A stretch of DNA of 64,000 nt, from positions 496,001 to 560,000 of the forward strand of contig NZ_JAEQNA010000001.1 in assembly GCF_016722895.1 (NCBI RefSeq). Direction: 5' to 3'. This DNA is from Ramlibacter aurantiacus (GTDB lineage Bacteria; Pseudomonadota; Gammaproteobacteria; Burkholderiales; Burkholderiaceae_C). Made by a program: the position numbers and the translations under genes. Positions 47,282 through 63,139 of this stretch are shown piece after piece. The first letter of the stretch is position 1, and each line of letters starts with the position of its first letter. The notes below the pieces were generated by a model. It had not been told where the DNA came from. It saw only the letters and a program-made list of their open reading frames with translations, and did no database searches.

Positions 47282-47337
47282 GGGGCGATGCTCCTTGCGG
47301 GTTGCGAAGATGCGGAAGCGGCCCGTATCATGATCGA

Positions 47338-48237
47338 ATGCAAATGCATATGCAAGTGGATATATCTCGGGCCAGGCATGGCATGCAGTGGATCGAAGGT
47401 GGCGCCTTCGCCATGGGATCGGCGCGGTTCTACCCCGAGGAGCGCCCCGTGCGAGTGGTCGAGGTGGACTCGTTCTGGATCGACGAGACGCCGGTCACGA
47501 ACGCGTCCTTCGCGGCCTTCGTGCAGGCCACCGGCTACCTCACGGCGGCGGAACGGACCGGCAGCTCGGCCGTGTTCGAGAAGACAAGCGGTCCCGTCGA
47601 TCGCTTCGATCCTGCGTTGTGGTGGCGCTTGCGCGAGGGTGCCTGCTGGCGCAACCCCTGGGCCCGCGGTCTCGATGGACTGCAGGAGCATCCGGTGGTG
47701 CACGTCGCCTACGAGGACGCGCAGGCATTCGCGGCGTGGGCGGGCAAGCGGCTGCCCACCGAGGCCGAGTGGGAGTACGCCGCGCGCGGTGGGCTGGCAG
47801 GCGCCGACTACGCCTGGGGCGACCAGCTCGCCCCCGACGGGCTGGTGCTGGCCAACTACTGGCAGGGTGAATTCCCGCACCAGAACACGCTGCTCGACGG
47901 CTGGGAACGCACCTCCCCCGTGCGCAGCTACCCCGGCAACGGCTACGGCCTGTTCGACATGATCGGCAACGTGTGGGAATGGACCAGCGACCGCTGGTCC
48001 GTCGGCGGTGCGGCCGCCAAGCCGGGTTGCTGCGCATCGGCTTCACCGCGCGACGGCGTGCTGGAGAAGGTGATCAAGGGCGGCTCTCACCTGTGCGCGC
48101 GCAACTACTGCCAGCGCTATCGGCCCGCCGCCCGGTATGCGCAGCGGGCGGACTTGCCGACCAGCCACATCGGCTTCCGGTGCGTGGCGGATCGCCCCAT
48201 CGATGCAGATTCCGGATCGACCGATCCGGTTTTGTGA
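47338..48237 (+). CDS. Formylglycine-generating enzyme (SUMF1 family)
   Basis: The product has MQWIEGGAFAMGSARFYPEE at its start in outline, RLPTEAEWEYAARGG, MIGNVWEWTSDRW and the active-site cysteines in HLCARNYC (residues 253 and 258), matching the copper-dependent aerobic FGE that converts sulfatase Cys to formylglycine. It is divergent from the sulfatase, whose C58 is the expected target. The ATG at 47338 is the longest reading; the start at 47386 (283 residues) is more likely, because the AT-rich palindromes at 47345-47366 would then lie in the promoter region. Confidence 0.9.
   Translation: MQMHMQVDISRARHGMQWIEGGAFAMGSARFYPEERPVRVVEVDSFWIDETPVTNASFAAFVQATGYLTAAERTGSSAVFEKTSGPVDRFDPALWWRLREGACWRNPWARGLDGLQEHPVVHVAYEDAQAFAAWAGKRLPTEAEWEYAARGGLAGADYAWGDQLAPDGLVLANYWQGEFPHQNTLLDGWERTSPVRSYPGNGYGLFDMIGNVWEWTSDRWSVGGAAAKPGCCASASPRDGVLEKVIKGGSHLCARNYCQRYRPAARYAQRADLPTSHIGFRCVADRPIDADSGSTDPVL
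47345..47366. promoter_or_regulatory. Palindromes TGCATATGCA and GATATATC in the sulfatase/FGE region
   Basis: TGCATATGCA (47345-47354) and GATATATC (47359-47366) are perfect palindromes in an AT-rich island between the divergent sulfatase and FGE genes. Candidate MarR operator and -10 region. Confidence 0.45.
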
Positions 48238-49365: not shown

Positions 49366-50097
49366 CTACAGCGTGAGGCTGCCCACGCTGGTGCCGCCGC
49401 AGACGTACAGCACCTGGCCGGTCACGAAGCCGTTGGCCGCGTCGACGAAGAACGACACGGCGCGCGCCACGTCACCGGCCTCGCCCACGCGGCGCACCGG
49501 GATGCCCTCGGCCACCTTGCGTTCCTGCTCGGCGGTCTTCACCACGTCATGGAACATGTCGGTGCGGATCGGCCCCGGCGCCACCACGTTCACGGTGATG
49601 CCCTGCGGCGCCAGCTCCAGGGCCCAGGTGCGGGCCATGCCCAGCATGCCGGCCTTGGTGGCCGAGTAGGCGGTGCGGGTCTGCAGGCCCAGGGCGGCGC
49701 GCGAGGACATCAGCACGATGCGCCCGAACTGCCGCGCCTGCATGGCGGGCAAGGCGGCCTGCACCAGCTGCACGGCGCTGGCCACGTGCAACTGCATCAG
49801 CGCGTCCAGGTCTTCCAGCCGCGCCTCGGGCAGCAAGGCGGGCCGGATCACGCCGGCGTTGTGGACCAAGGTGGTCACCTCGAAGCGCTGCGCGATGTCG
49901 CGCGCGGCCTGGGCCGTGGCCGCGCGATCGGTCAGGTCCACCTCGATGGCGTGCAGGCGCGGGTGCCGCCATTCGCCGGCGCGGCGCGCCAACGAGATGA
50001 CCTCGTAGTCCTGCGCCAGCAGTTGCTCGCAGATGGCCTTGCCGATGCCGGCGCTGCCGCCGGTCACCAGGGCCACCCGGTTGGGATTGGCGTTCAT
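49366..50097 (-). CDS. SDR family oxidoreductase
   Basis: The 243-residue product is a classical SDR: VTGGSAGIG (about 11-19), HNAGV (about 79-83), Ser in LMSSRAA, and the catalytic YSATK (about 146-150), ending in a family C-terminus (GQVLYVCGGTSVGSLTL). It would oxidise or reduce a hydroxyl/carbonyl in the pathway. It is the last gene of the leftward operon; ATG 50097 follows GGAGAG and overlaps the cyclase stop (ATGA). Confidence 0.92.
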   Translation of the reverse strand: MNANPNRVALVTGGSAGIGKAICEQLLAQDYEVISLARRAGEWRHPRLHAIEVDLTDRAATAQAARDIAQRFEVTTLVHNAGVIRPALLPEARLEDLDALMQLHVASAVQLVQAALPAMQARQFGRIVLMSSRAALGLQTRTAYSATKAGMLGMARTWALELAPQGITVNVVAPGPIRTDMFHDVVKTAEQERKVAEGIPVRRVGEAGDVARAVSFFVDAANGFVTGQVLYVCGGTSVGSLTL

Positions 50098-50897
50098 GCG
50101 CTCTCCTCGACCAGGGCCAGCACGCGCAGCGGACTGCCGCTGCCCTTCTGGATCTTCAGCGGCGGGCAGATCAGCACGGCGCCGGCGGGCGGCAGCTGGT
50201 CCAGGTTGGCCAGGCACTGCAGGCCGTACTTGCCGGCGCCGTGCATGAAGTAGTGGCAGGGGTAGGGCGGGCGCAGGTGGTAGCCCTGCCCGGCGTCGGT
50301 GCCGATGGCCTCGGACCCGAAGCCCAGCACGTTGCGCTGCTCCACCAGGAAGCGCACGGCCTCGCTGCTGGGGCCGGGCGTGTGTTGGCCGGTCTCGTCG
50401 AAGTTCTGGTAGGCCTCGGGGTCGGTGCGCTTGGACCAGTCGGTGCGCATCAGCACCCAGGCGCCGGCGGGGATGCGGCCGTGCGCCTGCTCGAAGGCCT
50501 CGATGTCGGCGACGGTGAGCAGGTAGTCGGGGTCGGCCGCCGCCTGGGTCGAGCAGTCGATCACGCAGGCCGGCGCCACGAAGTGCTCGGCGGGAATCGT
50601 GTCCACCGAGTTGTTCGGCAGGTCGCGCCCCGAAATCCAGTGAACCGGCGCGTCGAAGTGCGTGCCGGTGTGCTCGCCGCAGGAGAAGTTGTTCCAGTAC
50701 CAGCCCGGCCCGCGTTCGTCATAGCTCGATATTTCCTCGACCCGGAAACCCCAGCACTGCCCCATCTCGGGCGGCAGCGCGATCTGCGGGAAGTCGGGCG
50801 TGAGCGTCTGCGTGAGGTCGACCACGCGGATGCGCCGGCTGGCCAGGGCCTGCGCCAGTTCGGTGAGAAGCGATGTCGTCGTTGCCTGCATGTTCAT
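50094..50897 (-). CDS. Metal-dependent cyclase-family hydrolase (kynurenine formamidase/isatin hydrolase-like)
   Basis: The 267-residue product belongs to the cyclase superfamily with the Zn/Mn motif HTGTHFDAPVHW (about 75-86). Members include kynurenine formamidase KynB and isatin hydrolase, both acting on indole breakdown products. Other residues of note are GFGSEAIGTDAGQ and the YHLRPPYPCHYFMHG segment. It sits in the operon between two SDR genes and overlaps each by 4 bp. Which of the two known reactions applies cannot be decided here. Confidence 0.88.
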   Translation of the reverse strand: MNMQATTTSLLTELAQALASRRIRVVDLTQTLTPDFPQIALPPEMGQCWGFRVEEISSYDERGPGWYWNNFSCGEHTGTHFDAPVHWISGRDLPNNSVDTIPAEHFVAPACVIDCSTQAAADPDYLLTVADIEAFEQAHGRIPAGAWVLMRTDWSKRTDPEAYQNFDETGQHTPGPSSEAVRFLVEQRNVLGFGSEAIGTDAGQGYHLRPPYPCHYFMHGAGKYGLQCLANLDQLPPAGAVLICPPLKIQKGSGSPLRVLALVEESA

Positions 50898-52144
50898 CCT
50901 CCGGCCGCGAGTTCGCGCTCGAGCACCTTGGGGTTGTCCTTCCAGCGCTCCAGCCATTCCTGGGCCACCTCGCCGGGGTACACGTCCTCGATGCCCTGCT
51001 TCAAGGCATCGACGACCGCCGAGGCGAGCGCGGCGGGCGCCAGCTTGGGGGGCGGCATGTTCTGGTTCCACTCGTCGTCGATCGGCCCCGGGAACACGTT
51101 GATCACGCGGATGCCCGCCGGCCGCATCTCGGCGCGCAGGCACTGCGACAGCGACAAGGCCGCCGCCTTCGATGCCGAGAAGGTGCCGTGCGGCGGAAAG
51201 TTGGACAGCGCATACACCGACAGCAGGTTGACCCAGGCCGTGGCATGGGTCACGCCGTCGGCCGAGCGCGCGCGCAGGGCCGGGCCGAAGGCCTGGGCCA
51301 GGCGCAGCAGGCCGAAGTAGTTGATCTCCATCTCGTGCCGGGCCACGTCGGTGCCGCGCCGCGCGGCGATGCCGAAGCTGCGGTGAACCTCGGCGGTGTT
51401 GACCACGATGTCCACCTTGCCGCCGATCTCGCCGGCCAGCTCGCTCACCGAGCGCTCGTTGGTCAGGTCCAGCGGCACCAGGGCCACGGGCTCCATGGCC
51501 GTGATGTCCTCCAGGCCGGGCAGCTTCTTCCAGGGTTCGGCATGGCCGACCCAGATCAGGTCGGCGCCGGCCTTGGCCAAGGCCTTGACCATCGCCTGGC
51601 CCACGGGGGTCTTGCCATCGGTGACCAGCACCTTGCGGTGCCGGGGGTCGCTCGCCATCTCCCTGAGCATTCGGTCGTCTGCCATGTGTTCGCTCCCGTC
51701 GTTCGGAAATCCGATGAGGACCGCCTGCCCGGCGCGGTCGATGCGCGCACCCACGTGCACGCGCTGCGGTGGTGCCGCCACCTCGTCGTGCAGGTGCACG
51801 ATGACCGTGGGCCCGGCGTCCAGTTGCACTATGCCCAGGCGCCAGGGCAGGCGCTCGCGGAAGAACAGGTCGTTGCTGTGGTGCAGCCGGGTGTCGGCCA
51901 GCAAGGTGCCCTGCCCGTCCTGCGGCCGCCATTTCAGCTGCGCCGACAGGCAGCGGTGGCAGGCCTCGCGCGGCGGGTACTGCACGGCCTGGCACTGCTG
52001 GCACACCTGCAGCTCGAAGCGGCCCTCGGCCGCCGCCGCGGTCATGCCCAGCGCCACGCGGCCGCGGGCCCAGGGCGGCAGGTTCATCTGCCGCGTGCGC
52101 AGGACCGGGTTCTTGCGCTTGGGTTTCATCAGCGGCATGGTCAT
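50894..52144 (-). CDS. Fusion: zinc-ribbon/OB-fold (DUF35-like) domain plus SDR
   Basis: The 416-residue product joins two domains usually made separately. Residues 1-150 hold a zinc ribbon (CQQC and CHRC, about 47-65) and an OB-fold of the DUF35 type, partner of thiolase-like proteins. Residues about 165-415 form an SDR: LVTDGKTPVGQA as a modified nucleotide motif, NTAEVHRS where NAG is expected, and FSASKAAALSLSQ where Tyr is replaced by Phe before the SxK-like segment. The Rossmann domain may therefore be structural or use another donor. The thiolase-like gene is immediately upstream with a 4-bp overlap. Confidence 0.85.
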   Translation of the reverse strand: MTMPLMKPKRKNPVLRTRQMNLPPWARGRVALGMTAAAAEGRFELQVCQQCQAVQYPPREACHRCLSAQLKWRPQDGQGTLLADTRLHHSNDLFFRERLPWRLGIVQLDAGPTVIVHLHDEVAAPPQRVHVGARIDRAGQAVLIGFPNDGSEHMADDRMLREMASDPRHRKVLVTDGKTPVGQAMVKALAKAGADLIWVGHAEPWKKLPGLEDITAMEPVALVPLDLTNERSVSELAGEIGGKVDIVVNTAEVHRSFGIAARRGTDVARHEMEINYFGLLRLAQAFGPALRARSADGVTHATAWVNLLSVYALSNFPPHGTFSASKAAALSLSQCLRAEMRPAGIRVINVFPGPIDDEWNQNMPPPKLAPAALASAVVDALKQGIEDVYPGEVAQEWLERWKDNPKVLERELAAGG

Positions 52145-53310
52145 GAGGCGCTCCCGAGCAGGACCGCGCCCGTGCACAGGCAGCGGTCGTAGGTGACCAT
52201 GCCGAAGCCGGTGACCAGGCCCAGGCGCGCGTCGGGCACCGCGCGTTCACCGGCCTGTCCGGTGAGCTGGCGAACGGCCTCGGTCACGCCCAGGAACCCC
52301 CCGGCGCAGCCGGCCTGCCCGGCCGACAGCTGGCCGCCGCTGGTGTTGTTGGGAAAGCTGCCGTCCCAGGTGAGCGAGTGGCTGCGCACGAAGGCCGGGC
52401 CCTCGCCCTTCTCGCAGAAGCCCAGGTCCTCGAACTGGAGCATCACGATCACCGGGTAGTCGTCGTAGGTCTGGATGAAGTCCACCTCGGCCGGGCGTGC
52501 GCCGGCCTGCGCGTACAGCTCGTCGCGGTCCACGCGCCAGCCGCCGCGGACCATGATGGGGTCATCCGAATAGGCGTTGTGGCGCTCGATGGCGCCGCGC
52601 ACCAGCACGTGCGGCAGGTCCAGCTCGCGGGCGCGTGCCTCGGTCATCACCAGGAAGGCCTCGGCGCCGGCGCAGGGCATGACGCAGTCGAACAGGTGGA
52701 TCGGATCGGAGATCGGCCGTGCCCGCAGGTACTCCTCCATCGTCAGCGGCTTCTTGAACACGGCCAGCGGGTTCTTCAGCGCATTGGCCCGCTGCGCCAC
52801 CGCGATGCGGCCGAAGTCCTCGCGCGTCGCCCCGTACTGGCGCATGTAGTTGGCGGTGATGAAGGCGAAGATCGAATTGGGCCCGCCCGAGCCATAGGGG
52901 TAGCTCGCGTCGCGCGCGAAATAGCTGAAGCCGCCCAGCATCTGCCGGAAGGAATCGACGTGGTTGGTGTCGCCCGCGATGCAGGCCACGATGTCGGCGT
53001 CGCCCGCCTGCACCGCGCGGGCGGCGCGGCGCAGCGCCATCACGCCCGAGGCGCCGCCGGTGGGAATGTGGTCCAGCCAGCGCGGCGACACGCCCAGGTG
53101 CTGGGTCACGCCCACGGCGGTGTCCGGGCCCAGCGAGAAGCTGCTCACCGTCAGGCCGTCGATCTGCTCCTTGGCGATGCCGGACTCGCGCACCAGCGCC
53201 TCCAGCGCCTGGCCGATGAACCAGTGGGCGCCGTGGGTGGAGTGGCGCACGTAGGGCACCGTCACCGGCACCGCCACCGCCACGCCCTCGTAGGAAAGCC
53301 GCCTGCTCAT
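52141..53310 (-). CDS. Thiolase-like (SCP-x/lipid-transfer) protein without the usual catalytic Cys
   Basis: The 389-residue product has the thiolase fold. The first catalytic loop reads TGGASG (84-89), with Ala/Ser where thiolases carry the nucleophilic Cys; C-terminal text includes NTSGGQLSAGQAGCAGGFLG with the His/Cys region altered. Such non-canonical thiolases pair with DUF35/OB-fold proteins and act in retro-Claisen or aldol cleavage of side chains (for example steroid side-chain aldolases). Its adjacent partner is the OB-fold-SDR fusion. Overlaps the ligase stop by 4 bp. Confidence 0.87.
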   Translation of the reverse strand: MSRRLSYEGVAVAVPVTVPYVRHSTHGAHWFIGQALEALVRESGIAKEQIDGLTVSSFSLGPDTAVGVTQHLGVSPRWLDHIPTGGASGVMALRRAARAVQAGDADIVACIAGDTNHVDSFRQMLGGFSYFARDASYPYGSGGPNSIFAFITANYMRQYGATREDFGRIAVAQRANALKNPLAVFKKPLTMEEYLRARPISDPIHLFDCVMPCAGAEAFLVMTEARARELDLPHVLVRGAIERHNAYSDDPIMVRGGWRVDRDELYAQAGARPAEVDFIQTYDDYPVIVMLQFEDLGFCEKGEGPAFVRSHSLTWDGSFPNNTSGGQLSAGQAGCAGGFLGVTEAVRQLTGQAGERAVPDARLGLVTGFGMVTYDRCLCTGAVLLGSAS

Positions 53311-54932
53311 GCCTGCCTCTTCTTCATCGCGCGAGTGTCGATGCAATTCGGCTGGCCGGGCAGGCCGCGCGCCAGTTCCCGCAACTGGCCGCGCTGGATC
53401 TTCTGCGAGGTGGTCAGCGGCAGCGCATCGACGAAGGCCACGTGGCCCGGCGCCTTGTAGTAGGCCAGCCGCTCCAGCGCGTGCCGCACGATGGAGGCGG
53501 CCAGGGCCTCGCGTCGGTTCGCGGCGACCGGTTCGCGGGTGATGACGCAGGCCAGCACCTCGTCGCCGCGCACCGCATCAGGCGTGGCGGCCACGGCGGC
53601 GGACTTCACCGCCGGATGCTGGTTCAGCACGCTTTCCACCTCGACCGCCGAGATGTTCTCGCCGCTGCGGCGGATCACGTTCTTCTTGCGATCGACGAAG
53701 TACATCAGGCCCTGCTCGTCGCGCCGGGCCATGTCGCCGGTGTGGAACCAGCCGCCGGCCCAGGCCTCTTCGGTGGCCGCCTCGTCCTTGAGGTAGCCCG
53801 AAAAGAAGTGGCGACGCGGGTCGGGCCCGCTGGCTCGCACCAGCAGCTCGCCCGGGGTGCCGGCGGGCACGTCCTGGCCTTCGTCGTCGACCAGCCGCAC
53901 CTCCACGAACGCCTCGGGCTTGCCGAAGCAGCTGGTGCCCACCTGGCGCGGCTCATGGTTGGCCATGATGCAGGCGGCCGCGCCGGTCTCGGTCATGGCC
54001 CAGGCCTCGACCAGCGGAAAGCCGAATCGCTCCTCGAACAGGCCGTGGTTCTTCTTGTCGACGCCGGCGCCGAAGCCCCAGCGCACCCGGTGGCCGCGGT
54101 CGGCCGGGCCGGCCGGCGCCGACAGCAGCATGGCGGGCATCACGCCCAGGTAGTGGACGATGGTCGCGCCGCTGTCGCGGACGCTGCGCCACCACGAGCT
54201 CGGGTGGAAGCGATCGAGCTGCACCAGGCAGCCACCGGCCGTGAGCACCACCATGGTGGAGAAGGCCATCGCGTTCACATGGTTCAGCGGCAGCGGCGTG
54301 ATGATGCGCTCCTGCCCCGGCCGCACCGAGCACACGCCGTCCAGGCCCGCGTACCACTCGCCGGCGCGCCGGAAGTAGCCGTTGGTGAGGCGGCAGCCCT
54401 TGGGCCGCCCGGTGGTGCCCGAGGTGTAGAGCAGCGCGCATTCAGTGCCTTCGTCGGGTGCGGTCCCGGCCAGGGGTGCCGCAACCGGCGCGGCCGGCAG
54501 GGTGGCGGCATCCAGCCCGTCCCAGCTGGCCAAGGGACGCTGCACCGCCCGGGCCGCGGCCTCCAGGTCGCCCGCGCGTGCCGGCAGGCTGACCGCCAGG
54601 CAGACCTCGCTGTGGTCCACCAGGTACTCCAGCTCGGCGGCGCGCATCTCCGGGTTGATCGGCACCACGCTGGCACCCAGCGCGTTGAGCGCGAACCAGT
54701 GGAACAGGAAGGCCGGCCGGTTTTCCAGCAGCAGCCCCACGCGATGCCCGTGGCCGTAGCCCGCCTGGGCATACGCGATGCGCAGCCGCTCGACTTCGGC
54801 GGCCGCTTCGCCCCAGGTCACGGATCGCGCCGGAATGCCGTAGACCTGCGCCGTGACCGGGTCGATGAACAGGAACTCGCCACCGGAATCGCGCTCCGCG
54901 GTGGTGGTGAAACGCTGATGGACAGTGCTCAT
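53307..54932 (-). CDS. Acyl-CoA ligase (AMP-binding)
   Basis: The 541-residue product is an ANL adenylating enzyme: YTSGTTGRPKG (169-179), the WAMTETGAA stretch near 317-325 (A5 motif) and the hinge/Lys region FVDRKKNVIRRSGENIS near residue 410-426. It would activate an aromatic or aliphatic acid as its CoA thioester. It fits a pathway in which an acid made by the oxygenase is activated before thiolase-like cleavage. ATG 54932; gap of 8 bp to the Bug gene. Confidence 0.92.
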   Translation of the reverse strand: MSTVHQRFTTTAERDSGGEFLFIDPVTAQVYGIPARSVTWGEAAAEVERLRIAYAQAGYGHGHRVGLLLENRPAFLFHWFALNALGASVVPINPEMRAAELEYLVDHSEVCLAVSLPARAGDLEAAARAVQRPLASWDGLDAATLPAAPVAAPLAGTAPDEGTECALLYTSGTTGRPKGCRLTNGYFRRAGEWYAGLDGVCSVRPGQERIITPLPLNHVNAMAFSTMVVLTAGGCLVQLDRFHPSSWWRSVRDSGATIVHYLGVMPAMLLSAPAGPADRGHRVRWGFGAGVDKKNHGLFEERFGFPLVEAWAMTETGAAACIMANHEPRQVGTSCFGKPEAFVEVRLVDDEGQDVPAGTPGELLVRASGPDPRRHFFSGYLKDEAATEEAWAGGWFHTGDMARRDEQGLMYFVDRKKNVIRRSGENISAVEVESVLNQHPAVKSAAVAATPDAVRGDEVLACVITREPVAANRREALAASIVRHALERLAYYKAPGHVAFVDALPLTTSQKIQRGQLRELARGLPGQPNCIDTRAMKKRQA

Positions 54933-54940
54933 GGTCCGGC

Positions 54941-55906
54941 TCAGTCGAGCTTGATCCCCGCGGCCTTGATCACGGCGCCCAGCTTGACGGCGTCGTCCTT
55001 GATGGTCTGCGCGAACTGCTCGGGGCTGCTGGCGACCACGTCCATCCCCACGGCGGCGAGCTTGTCGCGTACGTCGGCCAGCTTGAGGATGCGGGTGATT
55101 TCGCCATGGAGCTTGGCGACGACGGCGCGGTCGGTCCCGGCCGGCGCGACGAAGCCGATCCAGGTGACCAGGTCCACCGGCAAGCCGGCTTCGCCCAGCG
55201 TCGGCACCTCCGGCAGGGACGGCGAGCGCTTGGCGCTGGTGACCGCCAGCGGCCGAACCTTGCCCGACTTCACGAAGGCCATGGCCGGCCCCAGCGCATC
55301 GAAGATCACCGGCACCTGTCCGCCCACCACGTCGGTCATCGCCGGGCCGCTGCCCTTGTAGGGGACGGCGACCATGTTCAGCTTCGCCGCCGACTTGAAG
55401 GCCTCGCCGGCAACCTGGGCCGGAAGGGCTCCGTGCGCATAGGCCAGCTTGCTCCCGGGGGCTTTGGCCAGGCTGACCAGGTCATTGACGCTGCGCGCCT
55501 GCACCGAGGGATGCACGGCCAGCACCATCGGCATGGTGACCGCAAGCGTCACCGGGGCGAAGCCGTTGATGGGGTCATACGGCAGCCGGGCATACAGGCT
55601 CTGGTTCATCGCCAGCGTGGAGTCGATCGGCAGGAACAGCGTGTAGCCGTCCGGCGCGGCGCGCGAGGCCAGCTCGGCTCCGATCACGGTGTTGCCGCCC
55701 GGGCGGTTGTCCACGGTGACGGGCACCTTCCAACTCTCGCCCAGCTGGGCCGCCACGGTGCGCGCCACCAGGTCGGTGCCGCCGCCGGGCGGAAAGGGAA
55801 CGATGATGCGGATCGGCTTGGACGGGTAGCTGTCGGCCTGCGCGAAAGACGGACCGGCCGCCGCCAGGGCGAACAGCATGGACAGCAGCGTGCTCGGGAA
55901 CTTCAT
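54941..55906 (-). CDS. Bug/TctC-family periplasmic solute-binding protein
   Basis: The 321-residue product has a signal with cleavage near residue 22 (SFA), then IIVPFPPGGGTD, DNRPGGNTVIG, PDGYTLFL and AVPYKGSGP. It is embedded in the ior/oxygenase/ligase operon, which implies that it binds the acid processed by those enzymes. The start has an AGGAG ribosome site. Confidence 0.93.
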   Translation of the reverse strand: MKFPSTLLSMLFALAAAGPSFAQADSYPSKPIRIIVPFPPGGGTDLVARTVAAQLGESWKVPVTVDNRPGGNTVIGAELASRAAPDGYTLFLPIDSTLAMNQSLYARLPYDPINGFAPVTLAVTMPMVLAVHPSVQARSVNDLVSLAKAPGSKLAYAHGALPAQVAGEAFKSAAKLNMVAVPYKGSGPAMTDVVGGQVPVIFDALGPAMAFVKSGKVRPLAVTSAKRSPSLPEVPTLGEAGLPVDLVTWIGFVAPAGTDRAVVAKLHGEITRILKLADVRDKLAAVGMDVVASSPEQFAQTIKDDAVKLGAVIKAAGIKLD

Positions 55907-55929
55907 GGTCGCGGACTCCTGGAAAGCTT

Positions 55930-56406
55930 TCAGATGAACAGCTGCACCGAAGGCAGCGCGGCGTCGGGGTTGAGCAGGTTCACGCGCTTGAGCTGGATGC
56001 GCAGCTGGCCCTGCTGGTCGACCAGGTGATGCAGGCAGGTCCCCACGTAGGTCTGCAACTCGTCACCCTGCGATTCGGTGTAGTGGAACTCGGTGCGCAG
56101 CACGAAGCGCCCGGCCGCCTCGTCGAAGGCTTCCACCGTGGGCGTCTGCAGCAGGTGGTGGCAGCGGCTGGGCGGCTGCTGCGAGAAGGCGCGCGGGCTC
56201 TTCAGGCGCTCGATTCGCAGCTCGCGCAAGAGCTTGTCCTCGTACATGTGCGAGGTGTGGTTCAGGCCATCGGGCTGGTCCGGCACCAGCGGGATCCAGT
56301 AGATGGCGTCGTCGGTGAACAGCGCGTTCCAATCGTCGAAGCGCTTGGCGTCGAGCAGGCGCGCCTCGCGCACCACGAAGTCGATCAGGTCCTGGCGTGT
56401 CGGCAT
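55930..56406 (-). CDS. Ring-hydroxylating oxygenase, beta subunit
   Basis: The 158-residue NTF2-like product matches oxygenase beta subunits (VVREARLLDAKRFDDWNALFTDDAIYWIPL at the start in outline; SRCHHLLQT in the middle). It pairs with the alpha subunit encoded 7 bp upstream. It lies in the leftward operon. Confidence 0.9.
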   Translation of the reverse strand: MPTRQDLIDFVVREARLLDAKRFDDWNALFTDDAIYWIPLVPDQPDGLNHTSHMYEDKLLRELRIERLKSPRAFSQQPPSRCHHLLQTPTVEAFDEAAGRFVLRTEFHYTESQGDELQTYVGTCLHHLVDQQGQLRIQLKRVNLLNPDAALPSVQLFI

Positions 56407-56413
56407 GGCTGGC

Positions 56414-57730
56414 TCACTCCGTCATGGTCAGGGTCATGTAGCGCGCCCAGGCGCGGTACTGGTTTCGCATCGAGATTTCGCTGGTGCCGTTGACGGTGAG
56501 GTCGGGCTTGCCGATCTCCGCTTCGTCGAAGTCACGGTGCAGGCTGACCCAGTCGTTGCCGCTGGCGCGCAGCCCCTCCTGGATGCCGCGGTAGGCGTGC
56601 AGGTCGTCGTGGCCCACCACGGAGAACGGCGAGTTGATCAGGCGGCTGTAGGTGCAGGTGCGTTGCAGCAGCTCGGGCGGCGCGCCCTTGAGGCGGAAGG
56701 TCCAGCTCTCCACCAGGGTCTTGTCCACGGCGATGGGGCGGATCACCCGGATCGCCTGGATCGCGCCCTTGATGGTCAGCGTGGGGTAGTACACGGTGTT
56801 GTGCCTGGCCAGGCCGATGATGGCGCGTGCGCGATCGTCGCCGTAGGCCTGCTTCATCGCCTCGTCGTACGCCGGGATGGCCGAGTAGTGGCTGTGCAGC
56901 GAGAACTTCACGCCCGAGAAGCTGTGGCCGTTGTCGAACACGCGCACGCCCATCTCGTCGAAGAAGGGATAGTCGTTCACGAAGGGCATGAACTGCTCGA
57001 TGGCCATGGGCTTGGGCGCGTCGGCGGGCTGGTCCTTCCACATGGCCTTGGCCGTGCCCGCCGAGGACTCGTGCGCCACCATGGGGTGCATGGTGTCGTT
57101 GAGGTTCTCGATGAACATCTTCCAGTTGCAGGCGTGCACGTAGCGCAGGCAGCCGCCGGCGATCTCCAGCTCGCCCTGCGGCGAGCGGTCGGCCATGTTG
57201 TCGATGGAGGAGAGCGAGTCGCCGAAGTAGTCCTCGAAGCTCGGCCCCACCTCGTTGATGCGCGCGAAGATGAAGCCCCGGTACAGGCGCACGTGGCGCA
57301 GGGCCACGATGCCCTGCCCGGCCTCGCTGTCCGCCATGGCGGTGCCCTGGTAGCCCTTGCGCAGTGGCACGCCCAGCGTGGTGCCGTCGGTCCGGAAGGT
57401 CCAGGCGTGATAGGGGCAGCGGAAGAACTTGCCGGTGTTGCCGCTGGGCGCGGTGACCAGGCGCGAGCCCTTGTGCGCGCAGCGGTTCATCAGCACCCGC
57501 ACGCTGCCGTCGGTGTGGCGCACCGCGACCAGCGGCCGGTTGGCGACGTCGACGGTGAGGTAGTCGCCCACCTGCGGGATCTGGCTGTCGTGCCCGATGT
57601 AGTTCCAGGTATTGGCGAAGAAGTGCTCCTGCTCCAGCTGGAACAGCTCGGGGTCCAGGTACAGGTCGCGGTGCACGCGGTCCGGCTGCACCAGGGCGCG
57701 CACGGCTTCGGGGTTGCCTCGGTAACGCAT
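56414..57730 (-). CDS. Rieske aromatic ring-hydroxylating oxygenase, alpha subunit
   Basis: The 438-residue product has the Rieske ligands C84, H86, C105 and H108 and the iron site ENLNDTMHPMVAH (H215, H220, with N/D upstream). It differs from the NagG-like enzyme at 25305 in the iron-site spelling and resembles the alpha subunits of dioxygenases acting on indole acids or aminobenzoates in general outline. No ferredoxin or reductase is encoded in this operon, so electron transfer must be shared, perhaps with 23728-25308. The position right after iorB suggests indole-acetate or a related arylacetate as substrate, as an inference. Confidence 0.92.
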   Translation of the reverse strand: MRYRGNPEAVRALVQPDRVHRDLYLDPELFQLEQEHFFANTWNYIGHDSQIPQVGDYLTVDVANRPLVAVRHTDGSVRVLMNRCAHKGSRLVTAPSGNTGKFFRCPYHAWTFRTDGTTLGVPLRKGYQGTAMADSEAGQGIVALRHVRLYRGFIFARINEVGPSFEDYFGDSLSSIDNMADRSPQGELEIAGGCLRYVHACNWKMFIENLNDTMHPMVAHESSAGTAKAMWKDQPADAPKPMAIEQFMPFVNDYPFFDEMGVRVFDNGHSFSGVKFSLHSHYSAIPAYDEAMKQAYGDDRARAIIGLARHNTVYYPTLTIKGAIQAIRVIRPIAVDKTLVESWTFRLKGAPPELLQRTCTYSRLINSPFSVVGHDDLHAYRGIQEGLRASGNDWVSLHRDFDEAEIGKPDLTVNGTSEISMRNQYRAWARYMTLTMTE

Positions 57731-57752
57731 CGTCAATGCCTCCTTCCAGGAA

Positions 57753-59276
57753 TCAGAACGCCGCCTGCCTGGTGCGCGGCTGGCCGGTGATGAGGGCCTG
57801 GAGCTTGTCGCCATGCTCGTCGGCCAGGGCTGCCTCGCGCAGCTCGCGCAGCCGCGCCGGCGCCAGCCCGGCGCCCAGCTGGTCCACCTGGCGCATCACC
57901 GTCTCGAAGTTGCGCAGCCCGCGCTCGTGGGTGTCGCCGTAGCCCTTGACCAGGCGCTGGCACTGGGCGATCTCCAGCGCGAGCTGCGGGTGCGTTGCCG
58001 CCGCCGCTTCGATGCGGCGCAGCCATTGTTCGATGCGGGCGTCTTCCGCCTGGAAGCGCAGGCTGGCCCGGCGCCAGCGCCGCATGCCCGACAGCGTGTA
58101 CAGCAGCAGGAAGCCCGACAGCGAGCTGGTCTGGACGACGCGGCCCCTGTGCGTGAAACGCTCGACCAGGCGGCGTGGCCAGCCCGAGCCGGCCAGCCAG
58201 CGGCCCAGGCCCGCCGGCAGCGTGTCGCAGATCTCCTGCAGGCGCGGGTGCATGTATTCGTTGATGGCCAGCAGCTGGTCGCCCTGGGCGCGAACCTCCT
58301 GGCCGACGCGCTGGAAGCGGCTGGCGCGGGTCTTGAGGTCGGCCACGCGGATGGTGTCTTCGTAGGCCATCCACAGCGCCAGGTGGCGAGCGGTTTCGGC
58401 CAGCAGCGGCGCGTCGGCGCCGGCCTGGCGCTGCAGACGCCGCAGGCGGTCGAGGTAGGTGCTGCCGTAGGCCGTGTCCTGGTAGTCGACCACACGGCGC
58501 AGGCCTTCCAGCACGATCGGCCGGGCCGACGCCGGGAAGCCATCGAGCTGGGCGAGCAGCGAACGCACGGCCGGATCGGATGCCTCGCGGGCCGGCGCGA
58601 TCGCTTCGGCGCCCGGGGGCTGCGCGTCAGCCTCGGCGCCAGCGCCCCGCTGCGTGCGATCGAAGGCGGCACCGAAGGCCTTGAGGCTGGCCTTCACGCC
58701 CACGCCGCCGCGCTCGATGGTCCCTTCGAACTGCGCCCGGCTGAACGGCAGTTCGCCGGAGCCGGCCAGCGCGCCGAACAGCACGGCGCTGATCACGCTG
58801 CCGTTCTCCTCGGCCATGCGGGCCATGTCGAAGTGCAGGAATCGCCGGGCGGCCGCCTGTCCGTGCGCCAGCAGGTTGGCGCTGTCGGCGCGGCCATCGG
58901 CCATGGCGGTCTTCTCGGCGATGCTGTAGACGCGATGGGTGGAGGCGATCAACGTCGTGCGATCGGGCGTGACCAGCCCGCGCTGCACGGCGCGGCCCGC
59001 CTCCATCAGCTCGGAGGCCAGCACCACGTCCACGTCGCCCGGCAGCGGCATCAGCGCCAGCACCGGGTGGCCGCCGTCGCGCTCGGCCACCGCGCGCGGG
59101 TACAGCTCGACGTAGTAGATGGTGGCGCCGGTGCGCTGCGCGACGCCGGGCACCGAGGTGGTCTGCGCGAGGTAGCCGTTGGCTTCGCCGAGGTCGACGA
59201 TCCAGTCGGCCAGCACGCCGCCGCCTTCGCCGCCCATGGCGAGGATGGCGATCTTGATGGGTTGGGACGGGCTCAT
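57753..59276 (-). CDS. iorB: Indolepyruvate oxidoreductase, IorB-type subunit with DUF6537 extension
   Basis: The 507-residue product has an N-terminal domain of the pyruvate/indolepyruvate oxidoreductase gamma/beta type (AILAMGGEGGGVLADW, about 10-25) and a long C-terminal helical extension (about 230-507; DUF6537) found in bacterial proteins of this class. With IorA it oxidatively decarboxylates aryl-pyruvates to aryl-acetyl-CoA. The extension may contact an electron acceptor. It starts 5 bp after the IorA stop. Confidence 0.9.
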   Translation of the reverse strand: MSPSQPIKIAILAMGGEGGGVLADWIVDLGEANGYLAQTTSVPGVAQRTGATIYYVELYPRAVAERDGGHPVLALMPLPGDVDVVLASELMEAGRAVQRGLVTPDRTTLIASTHRVYSIAEKTAMADGRADSANLLAHGQAAARRFLHFDMARMAEENGSVISAVLFGALAGSGELPFSRAQFEGTIERGGVGVKASLKAFGAAFDRTQRGAGAEADAQPPGAEAIAPAREASDPAVRSLLAQLDGFPASARPIVLEGLRRVVDYQDTAYGSTYLDRLRRLQRQAGADAPLLAETARHLALWMAYEDTIRVADLKTRASRFQRVGQEVRAQGDQLLAINEYMHPRLQEICDTLPAGLGRWLAGSGWPRRLVERFTHRGRVVQTSSLSGFLLLYTLSGMRRWRRASLRFQAEDARIEQWLRRIEAAAATHPQLALEIAQCQRLVKGYGDTHERGLRNFETVMRQVDQLGAGLAPARLRELREAALADEHGDKLQALITGQPRTRQAAF

Positions 59277-59281
59277 GGCGT

Positions 59282-61432
59282 TCAGAAGGCGAGTGCTTCG
59301 CGCCGGCGTGCGGAGCGGCGCTGCAGCGCGCCGATGACGGCGCTGCTCACGCGCTGCTTCAGCCGGTCCCAGCGGGTCGGGTTGGTGACGATCTGCGCCC
59401 GGTAGAACGAGGGGCACAGCACGGCCGCATGCGAGACCTCGCCGCACAGGCCGCAGCCCACGCACGAATCGATGACCGAGGCCACGGGGTCGCTGCGCAA
59501 CGGATCGGGGTTGGGCTTGACGGTGAGCGAGGGGCAGCCGGACAGGCGGATGCACGAGTGGTCGCCGGTGCAGGTGTCGGGATCGACGCCGAAGCGCTCT
59601 CGCACCACGCGCTTGCCTTCGGCCGCGGCCTTGCGCGCCAGCGGCTTCTCGCGCCGCTGCTTGTTCAGCATGCACTCGGACTGCGCGATCAGCACCTTGG
59701 GGCCCTTCTCGCGCGTGGTGAGCGCCTCGCGCAGGGCGTCGCGCATGCCGGCCACGTCATAGGTGCGGCGGATGGCCTTGACCCAGGTCACGCCCACGCC
59801 GCGCACCGCCTGCTCGATGGCGTGGCCCGTGCTGCGCGTGGGGTTCTGCGCGGTGGACGACAGGATGTCCTGGCCGCCGGTGGCCGAGGTGTAGCTGTTG
59901 TCCACCACGATGGTGAGGTTGTCGCTGCGGTTGAAGACGGCGTTGGCGATGCCGCTGGTCAGGCCGTTGTGCCAGAAACCGCCATCGCCCATGACGCTGA
60001 TGGCGCGCTTGTCGGCCGCCACGTTCAGCGCCGCCGCACCGGCCGCGCCCAGGCCGTAGCCCATGGTGGTGTTGCCCAGGTTGAACGGCGGCAGGATGGA
60101 GAACAGGTGGCAGCCGATGTCGGCGCTGACGTGGTGCGGCCCCAGTTCGCGCTCGACCAGTTTCATGGCGGTGAAGATGGGACGCTCAGGGCAGCCGGTG
60201 CAGAAGCCGGGCGGGCGGCCATGCACGCTGTCGGCCAGCGGCTTGAGCGGGATGACCTTGTGCCCGGCGGCGGTCGGCTTCGGCTCGGCGGCCAAGGGCT
60301 CGATGCGCCCGTAGCGCTCCATGAAGGCGCGCGCGCCCTTGAGCATTTCGGCAGCGGTGTACTCGCCGGCCAGGGGCAGCAGGTCCTTGCCGTGCAGCGC
60401 CGTGGTGCTGCCGTGCTGGCGCAGGACGTGCGCGATGTTCTGCTCGATGAAGTTGGGCTGCCCCTCCTCCACCATCAGCACCGCGCGCTTGCCCTCGCAG
60501 AAGCGCAGCACTTCGTTGTCGAGGACCGGGTAGGCCACGTTCATCACGTACAGCGGGATGCGGCTGTTGCCGTACACGTCGGCCAATCCCAGGCGCTCCA
60601 GCACGCGCAGCAGCGTGTTGTAGCTGCCCCCCTGGACGATGATGCCGATGTCGTCGCCGCCCTCGGCGAAGAACTCGTTGAGGCCGTGCTGCCCGATGTA
60701 GCGCACCGCGGCCGGCCAGCGCTGGCGCACTTTTTCCTGCTCGTGCAGGAAGCTCGCCGGCGGCAGGACGATGCGGTCCACGTCGCGCCGCGGATGCTCC
60801 ATGGCCTGCTTGATGCTGAAGGCAGCCCGGCGGTTGTCCTCGGCCACGAACTCGCCGTGCACGTGGCAGGCCCGGATGCGAAGTTGCAGCATGACCGGCG
60901 TGTGGCTGGCCTCTGACAGCTCGAACCCCTGCTTCACCGCCTTCACGATGCTCGGCAGGTCGGGCCGGGGATCGAGCAGCCAGATCTGGCTCTTCATGGC
61001 GAAGGCGTGGCTGCGCTCCTGCATGATGGACGAGCCTTCGCCGTAGTCCTCGCCCACCACGATGAGGGCGCCACCGGTCACGCCGCCGGAGGCCAGGTTG
61101 GCCAGGGCATCGGAAGCCACGTTGGTGCCTACCGTGGACTTGAACGTCACGGCGCCGCGCAGCGGGTAATTGACCGAGGCCGCCAGGGTGGCCGCGGCCG
61201 TGGCCTCGCTGGCGCTGTTCTCGAAGCGGATGCCGTGTTCGGCCAGGATGTCCTGGGCATCGGCCAGCACGTCCATCAGGTGCGAGATGGGCGCGCCCTG
61301 GTAGCCGGCCACGTACGACACGCCCGACTCCAGCAAGGCCTTGGTGACGGCCAGGATGCCCTCGCCGCGGAACACCTCGCCGGCGCCCAGCCTGAGCTTC
61401 CCGACCTCTTCGACGAACGAACGCTCAGCCAT
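59282..61432 (-). CDS. iorA: Indolepyruvate oxidoreductase, IorA-type TPP/4Fe-4S subunit
   Basis: The 716-residue product has the N-terminal pyrimidine-binding domain, TPP domain (MGDGGFWHNGLTSG near residues 478-491; NSYTSATGGQ) and a C-terminal ferredoxin part with cysteine groups DTCTGDHSC...GC and CVGCGLCGE plus C further on. Such enzymes oxidise indolepyruvate, phenylpyruvate and related 2-oxoacids to aryl-acetyl-CoA with electrons to ferredoxin. It is the first gene of the 12-kb leftward operon; the promoter region lies at 61450-61500. Confidence 0.92.
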   Translation of the reverse strand: MAERSFVEEVGKLRLGAGEVFRGEGILAVTKALLESGVSYVAGYQGAPISHLMDVLADAQDILAEHGIRFENSASEATAAATLAASVNYPLRGAVTFKSTVGTNVASDALANLASGGVTGGALIVVGEDYGEGSSIMQERSHAFAMKSQIWLLDPRPDLPSIVKAVKQGFELSEASHTPVMLQLRIRACHVHGEFVAEDNRRAAFSIKQAMEHPRRDVDRIVLPPASFLHEQEKVRQRWPAAVRYIGQHGLNEFFAEGGDDIGIIVQGGSYNTLLRVLERLGLADVYGNSRIPLYVMNVAYPVLDNEVLRFCEGKRAVLMVEEGQPNFIEQNIAHVLRQHGSTTALHGKDLLPLAGEYTAAEMLKGARAFMERYGRIEPLAAEPKPTAAGHKVIPLKPLADSVHGRPPGFCTGCPERPIFTAMKLVERELGPHHVSADIGCHLFSILPPFNLGNTTMGYGLGAAGAAALNVAADKRAISVMGDGGFWHNGLTSGIANAVFNRSDNLTIVVDNSYTSATGGQDILSSTAQNPTRSTGHAIEQAVRGVGVTWVKAIRRTYDVAGMRDALREALTTREKGPKVLIAQSECMLNKQRREKPLARKAAAEGKRVVRERFGVDPDTCTGDHSCIRLSGCPSLTVKPNPDPLRSDPVASVIDSCVGCGLCGEVSHAAVLCPSFYRAQIVTNPTRWDRLKQRVSSAVIGALQRRSARRREALAF

Positions 61433-61461
61433 GCCCCGGACCCCCGATTTGATTCAGCCGC

Positions 61462-61493
61462 GAATATATGAAAAGTAATGTGTGTGGAATATA
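61462..61493. promoter_or_regulatory. Direct repeats GAATATA in the ior/marR divergent promoter
   Basis: GAATATA occurs at 61462-61468 and 61487-61493, 25 bp apart, in the only AT-rich patch of the 197-bp region. On the minus strand it reads TATATTC, giving a plausible -10 about 30 bp upstream of the iorA start. Candidate MarR or LysR binding site. Confidence 0.5.
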
Positions 61494-61629
61494 GGGGGCG
61501 ACCCGGGTGGCCGTCAAGACACCCCTCGCGATGTATGCGGAATCAACTACCGAGGCTTAAACTGCCGGGCTGGAACGCGAGCTTCCACGCACCCCGTCGC
61601 TTCTCCCCAGGTCCACCCGAATCCACCGC

Positions 61630-62142
61630 ATGTCCGTGATCCCAGCCAGCAAGCGTCGCAAGGCGGCCCCGAGCCCGGCGCATTTCGTCGACGACTACCT
61701 GCCGGCCCTGCTGGCCCAGGCCAGCCACCTGATCTCGGGCGAGTTCCACCGCGTGGTGACGCAGAAAGGCTTCACCGTGTCCGAGTGGCGGGTCCTCGCC
61801 ACCCTGGCGGGCCGCCGGCAGATGAGCATCGGGCAGCTGGCGCGCATGACGGTGATGAAGCAGCCCACGCTCACGCGGGTGCTCGACCGCATGGAAGCGC
61901 GGGGCGACGTGCAGCGCCTGCCGCACGAGACCGACCGGCGGATCACGCTGGTGACCATCACGCGCTCCGGCGAACGGCTGGTGGCCGGGCTGATCGAGCT
62001 GGCGCAGGAACACGAGCGCCGCGTGCTCGAGCCCTTCGGCCTGGGACGCTCCGCCGAGCTGAAGACGACGCTCAAGCAGATGATCGAGATGCACCAGCTT
62101 GCCGCGGGCGAAGAGAGCTCCGGCGAGGACGACGACGCCTGA
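61630..62142 (+). CDS. MarR family transcriptional regulator
   Basis: The 170-residue product has a MarR winged helix (about 45-115; MSIGQLARMTVMKQPTLTRVLDRMEARGDVQRL in outline) with the wing DRRITLVT. Acidic C-terminus (SSGEDDDA). It is divergent from iorA and is the likely repressor of the 12-kb operon, as MarR proteins repress auxin-degradation operons in related bacteria. A LysR gene follows 10 bp later. Confidence 0.92.
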   Translation: MSVIPASKRRKAAPSPAHFVDDYLPALLAQASHLISGEFHRVVTQKGFTVSEWRVLATLAGRRQMSIGQLARMTVMKQPTLTRVLDRMEARGDVQRLPHETDRRITLVTITRSGERLVAGLIELAQEHERRVLEPFGLGRSAELKTTLKQMIEMHQLAAGEESSGEDDDA

Positions 62143-62152
62143 AGCACGCGCC

Positions 62153-63139
62153 ATGAAGCCGAGCAAGGAGCACACCCCCGGCCATCGCGGCCCGGAGCCC
62201 ACCCGGCCGGCCGCGCGCGCCAACCCTTCCAACATCAACTTCAAGTTGAGGCAGCTGTCGCTGCTCACGGCGCTGGCCGAGACCGGCACCTTGCGCGCGG
62301 CGGCCGAGCGCATCAGCGTGTCGCAGCCCGGCGCGACACGGCTGCTGCACGAACTGGAGGAGATGCTGGGCGTGAAGCTGTTCGACCGCGTGAAAGGACG
62401 CATGGTGGTGACGGCGGCCGGCGAGACCATGATCGCCCACGCCAGTGCGCTGCAAAGCGGCATGCTGCTGGCCTACACCGAGACCGCCGAGGCGGCCAGG
62501 GGCAACGCCGGGCAGCTGCGGCTGGGCGTCTTCAGCTCGCTGGATCCCGAACTGCTGGCCGAGAGCCTGCTGCGGCTGCGCGAGGATGCGCCGCAGGTGA
62601 AGGTCACGGTGGCCGAGGCGCCCATGGAGTTCCTGATCAGCGCCCTGCGCCGGTTCGAGCTCGATGCCGTGGTCGGCCGCGTGCACGGCGCGGGCAGCGA
62701 GGAAGACCTGCGCTACGAAATGCTCTACAACGAGTCGTTCTCCATCGTCTCGGGCGTGGACCACCCCATCGCCCGCGGCGGTCGCGCCGTGGAGCTGCCC
62801 GAGCTGCTGCAGTGCCAGTGGGTGCTGGCGCCGCCCGACTCGCCGCTGCGCCAGCGCATCGACAGCCAGCTGCTGGCGAAGTTCGGGGCCAAGCCCCGGG
62901 GCACGGTGGAGACCCGCTCGCTGCTCGCCCACCTCACGCTGCTGGCCCGCAGCCACGACGTCGGCGTGCTTCCCCACGGCCTGGCGCGCTTCCTGGAAAA
63001 GCAGGGGCAGCTTCGCATCCTGGTGCCGTCCATCGGCGGCATCGAGGGGCTGGTGACCTTCATCACCCGCACGCACAGCCCGCCGCGGCCCTCGCTGCTG
63101 ATGCTCAAGCAGGCCCTGCAGAAGAACCTGCATCGCTAG
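62153..63139 (+). CDS. LysR family transcriptional regulator
   Basis: The 328-residue product has a basic tail (1-28), a LysR HTH (about 30-90; LRQLSLLTALAETGTLRAAAERISVSQPGATRLLHELEEMLGVKLFDR in outline) and the effector-binding domain. It lies just after the MarR gene and probably activates a neighbouring operon in response to a pathway intermediate. ATG 62153 chosen; a terminator follows at 63155. Confidence 0.92.
   Translation: MKPSKEHTPGHRGPEPTRPAARANPSNINFKLRQLSLLTALAETGTLRAAAERISVSQPGATRLLHELEEMLGVKLFDRVKGRMVVTAAGETMIAHASALQSGMLLAYTETAEAARGNAGQLRLGVFSSLDPELLAESLLRLREDAPQVKVTVAEAPMEFLISALRRFELDAVVGRVHGAGSEEDLRYEMLYNESFSIVSGVDHPIARGGRAVELPELLQCQWVLAPPDSPLRQRIDSQLLAKFGAKPRGTVETRSLLAHLTLLARSHDVGVLPHGLARFLEKQGQLRILVPSIGGIEGLVTFITRTHSPPRPSLLMLKQALQKNLHR

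Follow-up and report, generated by a model that had tools for sequence, protein, structure and literature searches.

Gene content and identity of the locus

The analyzed window, a stretch of 64,000 nucleotides from Ramlibacter aurantiacus (contig NZ_JAEQNA010000001.1, positions 496,001 to 560,000), contains ten leftward genes at 49366-61432 on the minus strand, divergent from a marR gene, that resemble the iad genes for degradation of the auxin indole-3-acetate (IAA). Neighboring genes of the run overlap by 4 bp or are separated by 5-23 bp, and it therefore looks like a single transcript. The genes, strands, and order described in an earlier sequence-only reading were all present as stated, and domain scans agree with them. 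The locus and its surroundings comprise the following features (window coordinates).

59282-61432, minus strand: iadA (iorA), alpha subunit of a thiamine pyrophosphate (TPP)/ferredoxin-type 2-oxoacid oxidoreductase, proposed isatinate oxidoreductase (TPP_enzyme_C; TIGR03336)
57753-59276, minus strand: iadB (iorB), beta subunit (NF006179, 729.6 bits with a cut-off of 348; POR and DUF6537)
56414-57730, minus strand: iadD, Rieske oxygenase alpha subunit (777/772 bits to IadD 9o71/7yls; 58-79% identity to 79 loci)
55930-56406, minus strand: iadE, Rieske oxygenase beta subunit (Ring_hydroxyl_B; 51-83% to the proteins beside IadD in relatives)
54941-55906, minus strand: Bug/TctC-like solute-binding protein gene between iadE and iadF (TctC, 198 bits)
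53307-54932, minus strand: iadF, AMP-forming coenzyme A (CoA) ligase (AMP-binding and C-terminal domains; 53-81% in relatives, 37% in locus L018)
52141-53310, minus strand: iadG, thiolase-fold protein, proposed retro-aldolase (178 bits to the CtSal aldolase 9myr)
50894-52144, minus strand: iadH, DUF35 zinc-ribbon/oligonucleotide-binding (OB) protein fused to a degenerate short-chain dehydrogenase/reductase (SDR) (zf-ChsH2, OB_ChsH2_C, adh_short)
50094-50897, minus strand: iadI, isatin hydrolase (386 bits to 5nna)
49366-50097, minus strand: iadJ, intact SDR dehydrogenase (adh_short)
61630-62142, plus strand: iadR, MarR regulator divergent from iadA (212 bits to MarR_73, 7kfo)
61433-61629, no strand: iadR-iadA intergenic region of 197 bp, where promoters and a MarR operator are expected from position only
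~62153-63139, plus strand: LysR regulator, probably not part of iad (LysR domains; start from a codon-based gene caller)

Ranked against solved structures, the oxygenase alpha subunit does not group with unrelated oxygenases: the two Variovorax IadD entries score 777 (9o71) and 772 (7yls) bits and the next family 153 bits, so a phthalate- or benzoate-type enzyme was rejected. The adjacent alpha/beta pair is orthologous to IadDE. As relatives we used 79 loci fetched with IadD from the best 80 of 591, some of them on short contigs and one from Ramlibacter ginsenosidimutans (contig6, L010). Because 50 of the 79 hold iorA, iorB, iadF, iadG, iadH, iadI, and iadJ around the same oxygenase, the grouping is not due to chance; the gene order is mostly that of the window, with iadJ ahead of iadI in a few loci. 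The gene set is common to Variovorax, Achromobacter, Ramlibacter, and others, and IadD was found at ≥53% identity in 8 of the 37 Ramlibacter genomes examined, including the one studied here.

The iad systems of Variovorax paradoxus CL14 and Achromobacter (iadA-J and iadR) have the same genes, order, and divergent MarR, and IadD of V. paradoxus NBRC 15149 shares 71% identity with the window protein. In the accessible text of Conway 2022 (PMC9613470), iorA and iorB are named IadA and IadB and described as exclusive markers of iad-like operons, and this marker pair is present in the window locus; IadD/E, IadC, and IadK2 are characterized in the accessible part of Ma 2023 (PMC10374108). We conclude that the run is very probably an iad-type IAA degradation locus of a known kind, and at the sequence level the proposal of a MarR-controlled IAA locus related to Variovorax iad is upheld. 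The further claim of a new variant, based on ior, the ligase, and the OB-SDR fusion, did not hold: iorA/iorB correspond to IadA/IadB, the ligase and the dehydrogenase have been published, and relatives usually carry the OB-SDR gene in fused form, so all three are standard iad genes. Degradation of a related aryl acid such as phenylacetate or an arylpyruvate instead of IAA would fit the generic names of the families that the oxygenase and ligase models represent; it is nevertheless very improbable, as IadD, IadR, and IadI are far closer to solved relatives from indole pathways than to any other and the MarR residues described next are kept.

The MarR protein (IadR) lies 197 bp from iorA and matches MarR_73 (7kfo) with 212 bits. 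The residues aligned by eye to S28 and R46, the IAA contacts of MarR_73 reported in PMC9613470 (accessible text), are retained, and the protein is predicted to belong to the IAA-binding IadR group. A MarR operator was not located in 61433-61629. Of the 60 commonest 10-mers of 53 iadR-iadA regions, this region contains none except those at the iorA start. The best match to a 20-base Variovorax block (approximately 61461-61480) has seven mismatches, and one 8-bp arm was found with a mismatch.

In contrast to the Variovorax and Achromobacter systems, the window operon has no iadC between iadB and iadD, which are separated by only 22 bp, and carries the Bug gene between iadE and iadF. Among the 65 relatives with both iadB and iadD, the gap measures 967-1174 bp in 54, all of which encode IadC, whereas in the other 11 it is at most 290 bp and no IadC was found on the stretch. 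Thus, iadC in the operon is usual but not defining for iad. Five of seven other loci from the same genus have iadC (61-77% identity to the L009 protein), and two (L153 and L151) have none; L151 lacks iorAB as well. A dedicated iadC elsewhere in the same genome was rejected, the best match being 44% identical and located beside a different Rieske pair, although this identity alone is not decisive because IadC proteins from distant iad loci show 46-53% identity to that query. The genome encodes at least eight other reductases of the IadC family. A single origin of the iadC-less state was also rejected with an IadD tree built from 59 rows (the window, each of the 11 loci without iadC, and 47 of the 54 measured loci with it), which requires seven changes, at least five of them forced by well-supported branches; the tree program flagged long branches, including that of the window. 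The iadE-iadF gap is 7-102 bp in all 68 of the 79 relatives where it could be measured, and none of the 68 has a Bug gene there. Known iad systems have an ABC transporter with an IAA-binding protein (iadK2 and others), whereas the window has the Bug protein (iadK was not searched for).

The window holds no second IadDE-like pair; apart from iadD itself, IadD matches only 25404-25991, at 34% identity. A second IadDE-like alpha subunit or pair (~54-60% to IadD) was observed in relatives (L152:15294-17044, L153:15849-17599, L154:304-2110, and many Variovorax), mostly 2-3 kb beyond iadJ. In the sister Ramlibacter locus L150, the iadD in the usual place (5934-7244) has an identity of only 58%, compared with 72% for a 50-residue remnant past iadJ (14671-14820); this looks like a swap between two IadDE-like pairs.

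Control by LysR, also put forward in the sequence-only reading, is unsupported: LysR matches occur in only 2 of the 79 relatives and are weak (29% identity), and the protein was rejected as a pathway regulator since it is not conserved across relatives. To the left of the locus are genes for a sulfatase and a sulfatase-modifying enzyme (FGE) (window 45875-48237), and to its right is an arylsulfatase-like gene (L088:2843-5089); a link to indoxyl-sulfate-type substrates is conceivable.

IadG and IadH as a candidate retro-aldolase pair

In the accessible text of Jiang 2025 (PMC12633357), a monooxygenase step is credited to IadCDE and a dehydrogenation to IadJ. Four further roles given there come from annotation: CoA activation for IadF, ketothiolase for IadG, alcohol dehydrogenase for IadH, and formamidase-like amidase for IadI. 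The closest solved relative of the window IadG is the CtSal aldolase 9myr, identified through PMC12329534 (178 bits), followed by 4u4e (named thiolase, 160 bits), the Ltp2 structure 6ok1 (155 bits), the acetyltransferase 7yvy (145 bits), and BbsB 7pxp (116 bits). We compared the active-site positions of IadG in the window and 68 loci, two of which (L059 and L060) contribute 39% homologues on the other strand, and set the thiolase nucleophile column by alignment to 7yvy. The cysteine of the 7yvy motif AACASG aligns to Gly86, which is glycine in 69 of 69 rows, and thus the nucleophilic cysteine of ketothiolases is absent from every IadG compared.

Two rows being incomplete, the remaining motifs were scored in 67. 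All of these have YDDY, compared with YDCY in Sal and YDHF in Ltp2 (PMC12329534), and all keep the two glutamines beside the catalytic cysteine of Sal, as placed from the same paper. IadG therefore retains the catalytic tyrosine of Sal and has aspartate in place of its cysteine in 67 of 67 rows; a Sal-like mechanism is possible, but the protein is not classified here as a Sal aldolase. Compared with Ltp2, which has YDHF and a second catalytic tyrosine, IadG has YDDY and glutamine at the Sal-type positions. It resembles both aldolases but shares neither catalytic triplet.

The partner protein IadH consists of DUF35 (zinc ribbon plus OB) and an SDR domain. At the catalytic tyrosine position of the SDR half, we found phenylalanine in 45 rows (including the window), tryptophan in nine, tyrosine in five, and one gap, so the residue is replaced in 54 of 59 rows; the first glycine of TGxxxGxG is aspartate in 60 of 60. 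The window IadH accordingly has neither mark of a catalytic SDR dehydrogenase, whereas in IadJ, used as a control, the tyrosine, lysine, and three glycines are intact in 62 of 62 rows. These patterns suggest that in most IadH proteins the catalytic tyrosine of the SDR half has been lost. According to the accessible text of PMC11321319, DUF35 mediates the Sal-Shy and Ltp2-ChsH2 interactions, although it is said not to matter for Ltp2 activity. IadG/IadH share with these steroid side-chain retro-aldolases the thiolase fold without a nucleophilic cysteine, the YDxY/F motif, and a DUF35 zinc-OB partner domain; they differ in having YDDY, in the fusion of DUF35 to a degenerate SDR rather than MaoC, and in a substrate that would be an indole.

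The expected intermediate, dioxindole-3-acetyl-CoA, carries a tertiary beta-hydroxyl, which is not oxidizable to a ketone and gives no 3-ketoacyl-CoA. A similar argument is made in PMC11321319, in its accessible text, for a steroid step served by an aldolase. We therefore consider it probable that IadG, although called a ketothiolase, is a retro-aldolase with the zinc-OB domain of IadH as its partner, predicted to yield isatin and acetyl-CoA. Two points weigh against this assignment: IadG has aspartate where Sal needs cysteine and Ltp2 has histidine, and IadH keeps the tyrosine in the five exceptional rows of 59. The ordinary published scheme, with ketothiolase and alcohol dehydrogenase roles for IadG and IadH and with IorAB as a side entry of IAA-CoA or IAA from indolepyruvate, agrees with the annotation in Jiang 2025 and with the family names indolepyruvate oxidoreductase and acetyl-CoA acetyltransferase. 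We regard it as unlikely, given the missing thiolase nucleophile, the loss of the catalytic tyrosine in most IadH proteins together with the broken TGxxxGxG, and the tertiary alcohol that cannot give a 3-ketoacyl-CoA. An aldolase is not mentioned in the accessible text of Jiang 2025, and a retro-aldol step is not proposed in the titles or abstract openings of the papers listed by a search of the IAA, isatin, and dioxindole literature, with subscription papers outside its scope.

Several loci depart from the usual IadG/IadH arrangement. The IadG partner is an OB domain alone, with no SDR, in three of them, namely L066, L075 (Achromobacter aestuarii), and L078 (Schauerella), an observation that speaks for the aldolase reading. 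The hybrid loci L075, L078, L059, and L060 keep iadDEF and iadJ and have no iorAB, isatin hydrolase, or IadH SDR half within 10 kb; L059 and L060 have no IadH at all, and a further Rieske pair lies upstream in L075 and L078.

IorAB and isatin hydrolase

IadI matches the solved isatin hydrolase 5nna with 386 bits over residues 8-264, compared with 22 bits to kynurenine formamidase. Its likeness to the isatin hydrolases of Labrenzia and Ralstonia is near full-length, and no difference was noticed (active-site residues were not compared singly). IorA, which is 61-88% identical to the IadA found beside IadD in relatives, belongs with IorB to the superfamily of indolepyruvate ferredoxin oxidoreductase and shares its TPP domain and, as read from the sequence, a tail with a ferredoxin-like cysteine pattern. 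In contrast to that enzyme, the window IorA scores below the TIGR03336 cut-off (284.7 vs. 650.9 bits) and keeps genomic company with isatin hydrolase and aminobenzoyl-CoA-type genes. Among solved structures, IorA has a single match (27.6 bits).

We examined the company of this IorA in 398 Pseudomonadota genomes, calling the iad-type (type-1) protein at ≥63% identity (with three genes that matched in two pieces included), isatin hydrolase at ≥46%, and IadD at ≥52%. The counts omit four genomes whose cyclases match at 37-42% and another four whose only IorA is of the 53-57% kind. Only a few top candidates were scored per genome, so extra copies may escape. Type-1 IorA was found in 25 genomes and isatin hydrolase in 25, with both in 23; the unpaired genomes have IorA only (G580 and G167) or hydrolase only (G642 and G555). 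IadD occurs in just seven genomes, six of them with type-1 IorA, and IorA plus isatin hydrolase without IadD in 17 of the 23. In these 17 genomes, the two genes lie within 7 kb in 15 and within 3 kb in 14, and only 4 bp apart in G664. Hypergeometric p values for the co-occurrences of type-1 IorA are 7e-33 and 3e-21, and by genus, the hydrolase is present in 14 of the 16 genera with type-1 IorA. As a rough control, a second IorA type (53-57%) occurs in eight genomes, and the four of these without the first type have no hydrolase match; two of the four have PRK08255 (see below), on other contigs.

Several of these pairs form stand-alone cassettes, with the order hydrolase-flavoprotein-MarR-iorA-iorB (L227, L235, and, with one more gene, L234), hydrolase-iorA-iorB (L229), or iorA-iorB-hydrolase (L228 and L232); in L138, the hydrolase lies 109 bp upstream of iorAB (L137 and L138 were judged by tblastn only, and L237 was not judged). 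Among the IadD loci, 56 have long flanks, and 49 of these carry both iorAB and iadI, four neither, two iorAB only, and one iadI only.

PRK08255, which joins a flavin monooxygenase to an old-yellow-enzyme domain, is present in 71 of the 398 genomes and in all 25 with type-1 IorA, where 22 proteins score over the cut-off and the gene lies within 12 kb of IorA in 13 genomes and within 35 kb in 16. Going by its two-domain make-up, this family probably includes 2-aminobenzoyl-CoA monooxygenase/reductase. The R. aurantiacus gene scores 1418 bits (cut-off 1078), has solved relatives for both halves, and is located outside the window, 18 kb from iadA, together with hydratase, acyl-CoA dehydrogenase, and Rid-family genes.

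Chemically, isatinate is a 2-oxo acid (2-aminophenylglyoxylate), and phenylglyoxylate oxidoreductase offers a precedent. The formation of aryl-acetyl-CoA from arylpyruvates, previously ascribed to IorAB, was judged unlikely here in view of the co-occurrence of type-1 IorA with isatin hydrolase and PRK08255, and we see roughly an even chance that IorAB acts on isatinate, not indolepyruvate. The side-entry role of the published scheme is likewise opposed by type-1 IorA being mostly found without IadD but with isatin hydrolase.

Several observations count against isatinate as the substrate. The p values overstate the association, because the genomes are related (a single genus accounts for 8 of the 25) and many genes are common to aromatic degraders. 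Three of the 25 PRK08255 genes are under the cut-off, the model is named for salicylyl-CoA, and in nine of the 25 genomes it is distant from IorA or on a different contig. In addition, iorAB and iadI part company in L011 and L061 (iorAB only) and in L028 (iadI only). According to the accessible text of Jiang 2025 (PMC12633357), overexpression of iadC-K2, a segment without iadAB, fully restored anthranilate; under these conditions, anthranilate formation thus does not need IorAB, a result that favors the published scheme. C8H7NO3 and C7H7NO accumulated strongly only on this overexpression, which counts for the isatinate reading; under that reading, a bypass via 2-aminobenzaldehyde (C7H7NO) would explain the pile-up, but the iadC-K2 result equally fits IorAB being unrelated to isatinate. 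Moreover, the same text reports that the compound accumulating without IadI is C8H7NO2, the formula of dioxindole and not isatin, which the scheme proposed below must ascribe to isatin reduction.

A different function, in which IorAB mainly supplies reduced ferredoxin for IadDE and so stands in for IadC, would suit the absence of iadC here and in 11 of the 65 relatives with iorB kept, as well as the contrast between the 44% IadC match beside another Rieske gene and the 61-77% identity in five same-genus loci. It seems improbable, since iorB is also kept in the 54 relatives with iadC, type-1 IorA occurs with isatin hydrolase and no IadD in 17 genomes, and at least eight other reductases of the family are available in R. 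aurantiacus.

In the accessible text of Jiang 2025, the names IadA/IadB are not used and no role is given to iorAB; nor is anything said of IorAB in the accessible text of PMC12538310 and PMC6117287 (indole/isatin) or PMC11630574. In the literature search, Conway 2022 alone joined indolepyruvate ferredoxin oxidoreductase, isatin, and anthranil- terms, and the products named in its accessible text are dioxindole, isatin, isatinic acid, and anthranilate.

Other arrangements were observed alongside these. The genome carries a second, distinct IorAB pair (54%/44%) beside Bug genes at G000:C22:187416-191089 (L140), and in G167:C3, G543:C29, and G637:C16 the IorA match is split by ~150-190 bp inside one long frame, as if a segment had been inserted. 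The L227, L234, and L235 cassettes also contain two flavin oxidoreductases, MarR, and an ABC transporter (families checked on L235).

Proposed pathway and its meaning

The following route from IAA through isatin to 2-aminobenzoyl-CoA, loosely read, has in our estimate an evenly balanced chance of being correct. IadR would repress the operon until IAA binds, as published for Variovorax. IadDE would oxidize IAA with a reductase encoded elsewhere, because iadC is missing, and IadJ would finish the oxidation to dioxindole-3-acetate, again as published for Variovorax. IadF would add CoA, as published from annotation. IadG on the zinc-OB domain of IadH would then split the tertiary beta-hydroxy acyl-CoA by a retro-aldol reaction into isatin and acetyl-CoA, and this step would deliver the substrate of IadI, the product of the next gene, which would hydrolyze isatin to isatinate. 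IorAB would decarboxylate isatinate with CoA and ferredoxin, and the resulting 2-aminobenzoyl-CoA may feed the aminobenzoyl-CoA-type cluster 18 kb away, with free anthranilate as a side or hydrolysis product.

More tentatively, and somewhat less probable than the route itself, IorAB as isatinate:ferredoxin oxidoreductase and isatin hydrolase may form a stand-alone isatin module across Pseudomonadota that is used by auxin and probably indole pathways, carbon reaching aminobenzoyl-CoA after the retro-aldol step without free anthranilate. The ferredoxin electrons could help pay for the first oxygenase step in iadC-less loci.

The locus is of a known iad type, with one reductase gene missing and one binding protein added, and its interest lies in the enzyme reassignments suggested by genome comparison. 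Should the aldolase role of IadG/IadH and the isatinate oxidoreductase role of IorAB be true, a chemically closed pathway would lead from auxin to 2-aminobenzoyl-CoA. In that case, isatinate would be predicted to build up in cassettes that lack iorAB, and many proteins now called "indolepyruvate oxidoreductase" or "acetyl-CoA acetyltransferase" would have to be renamed. Engineered iad cassettes have already been tried on plants (PMC12633357, accessible text), and bacteria with iad loci affect the amount of auxin seen by roots.

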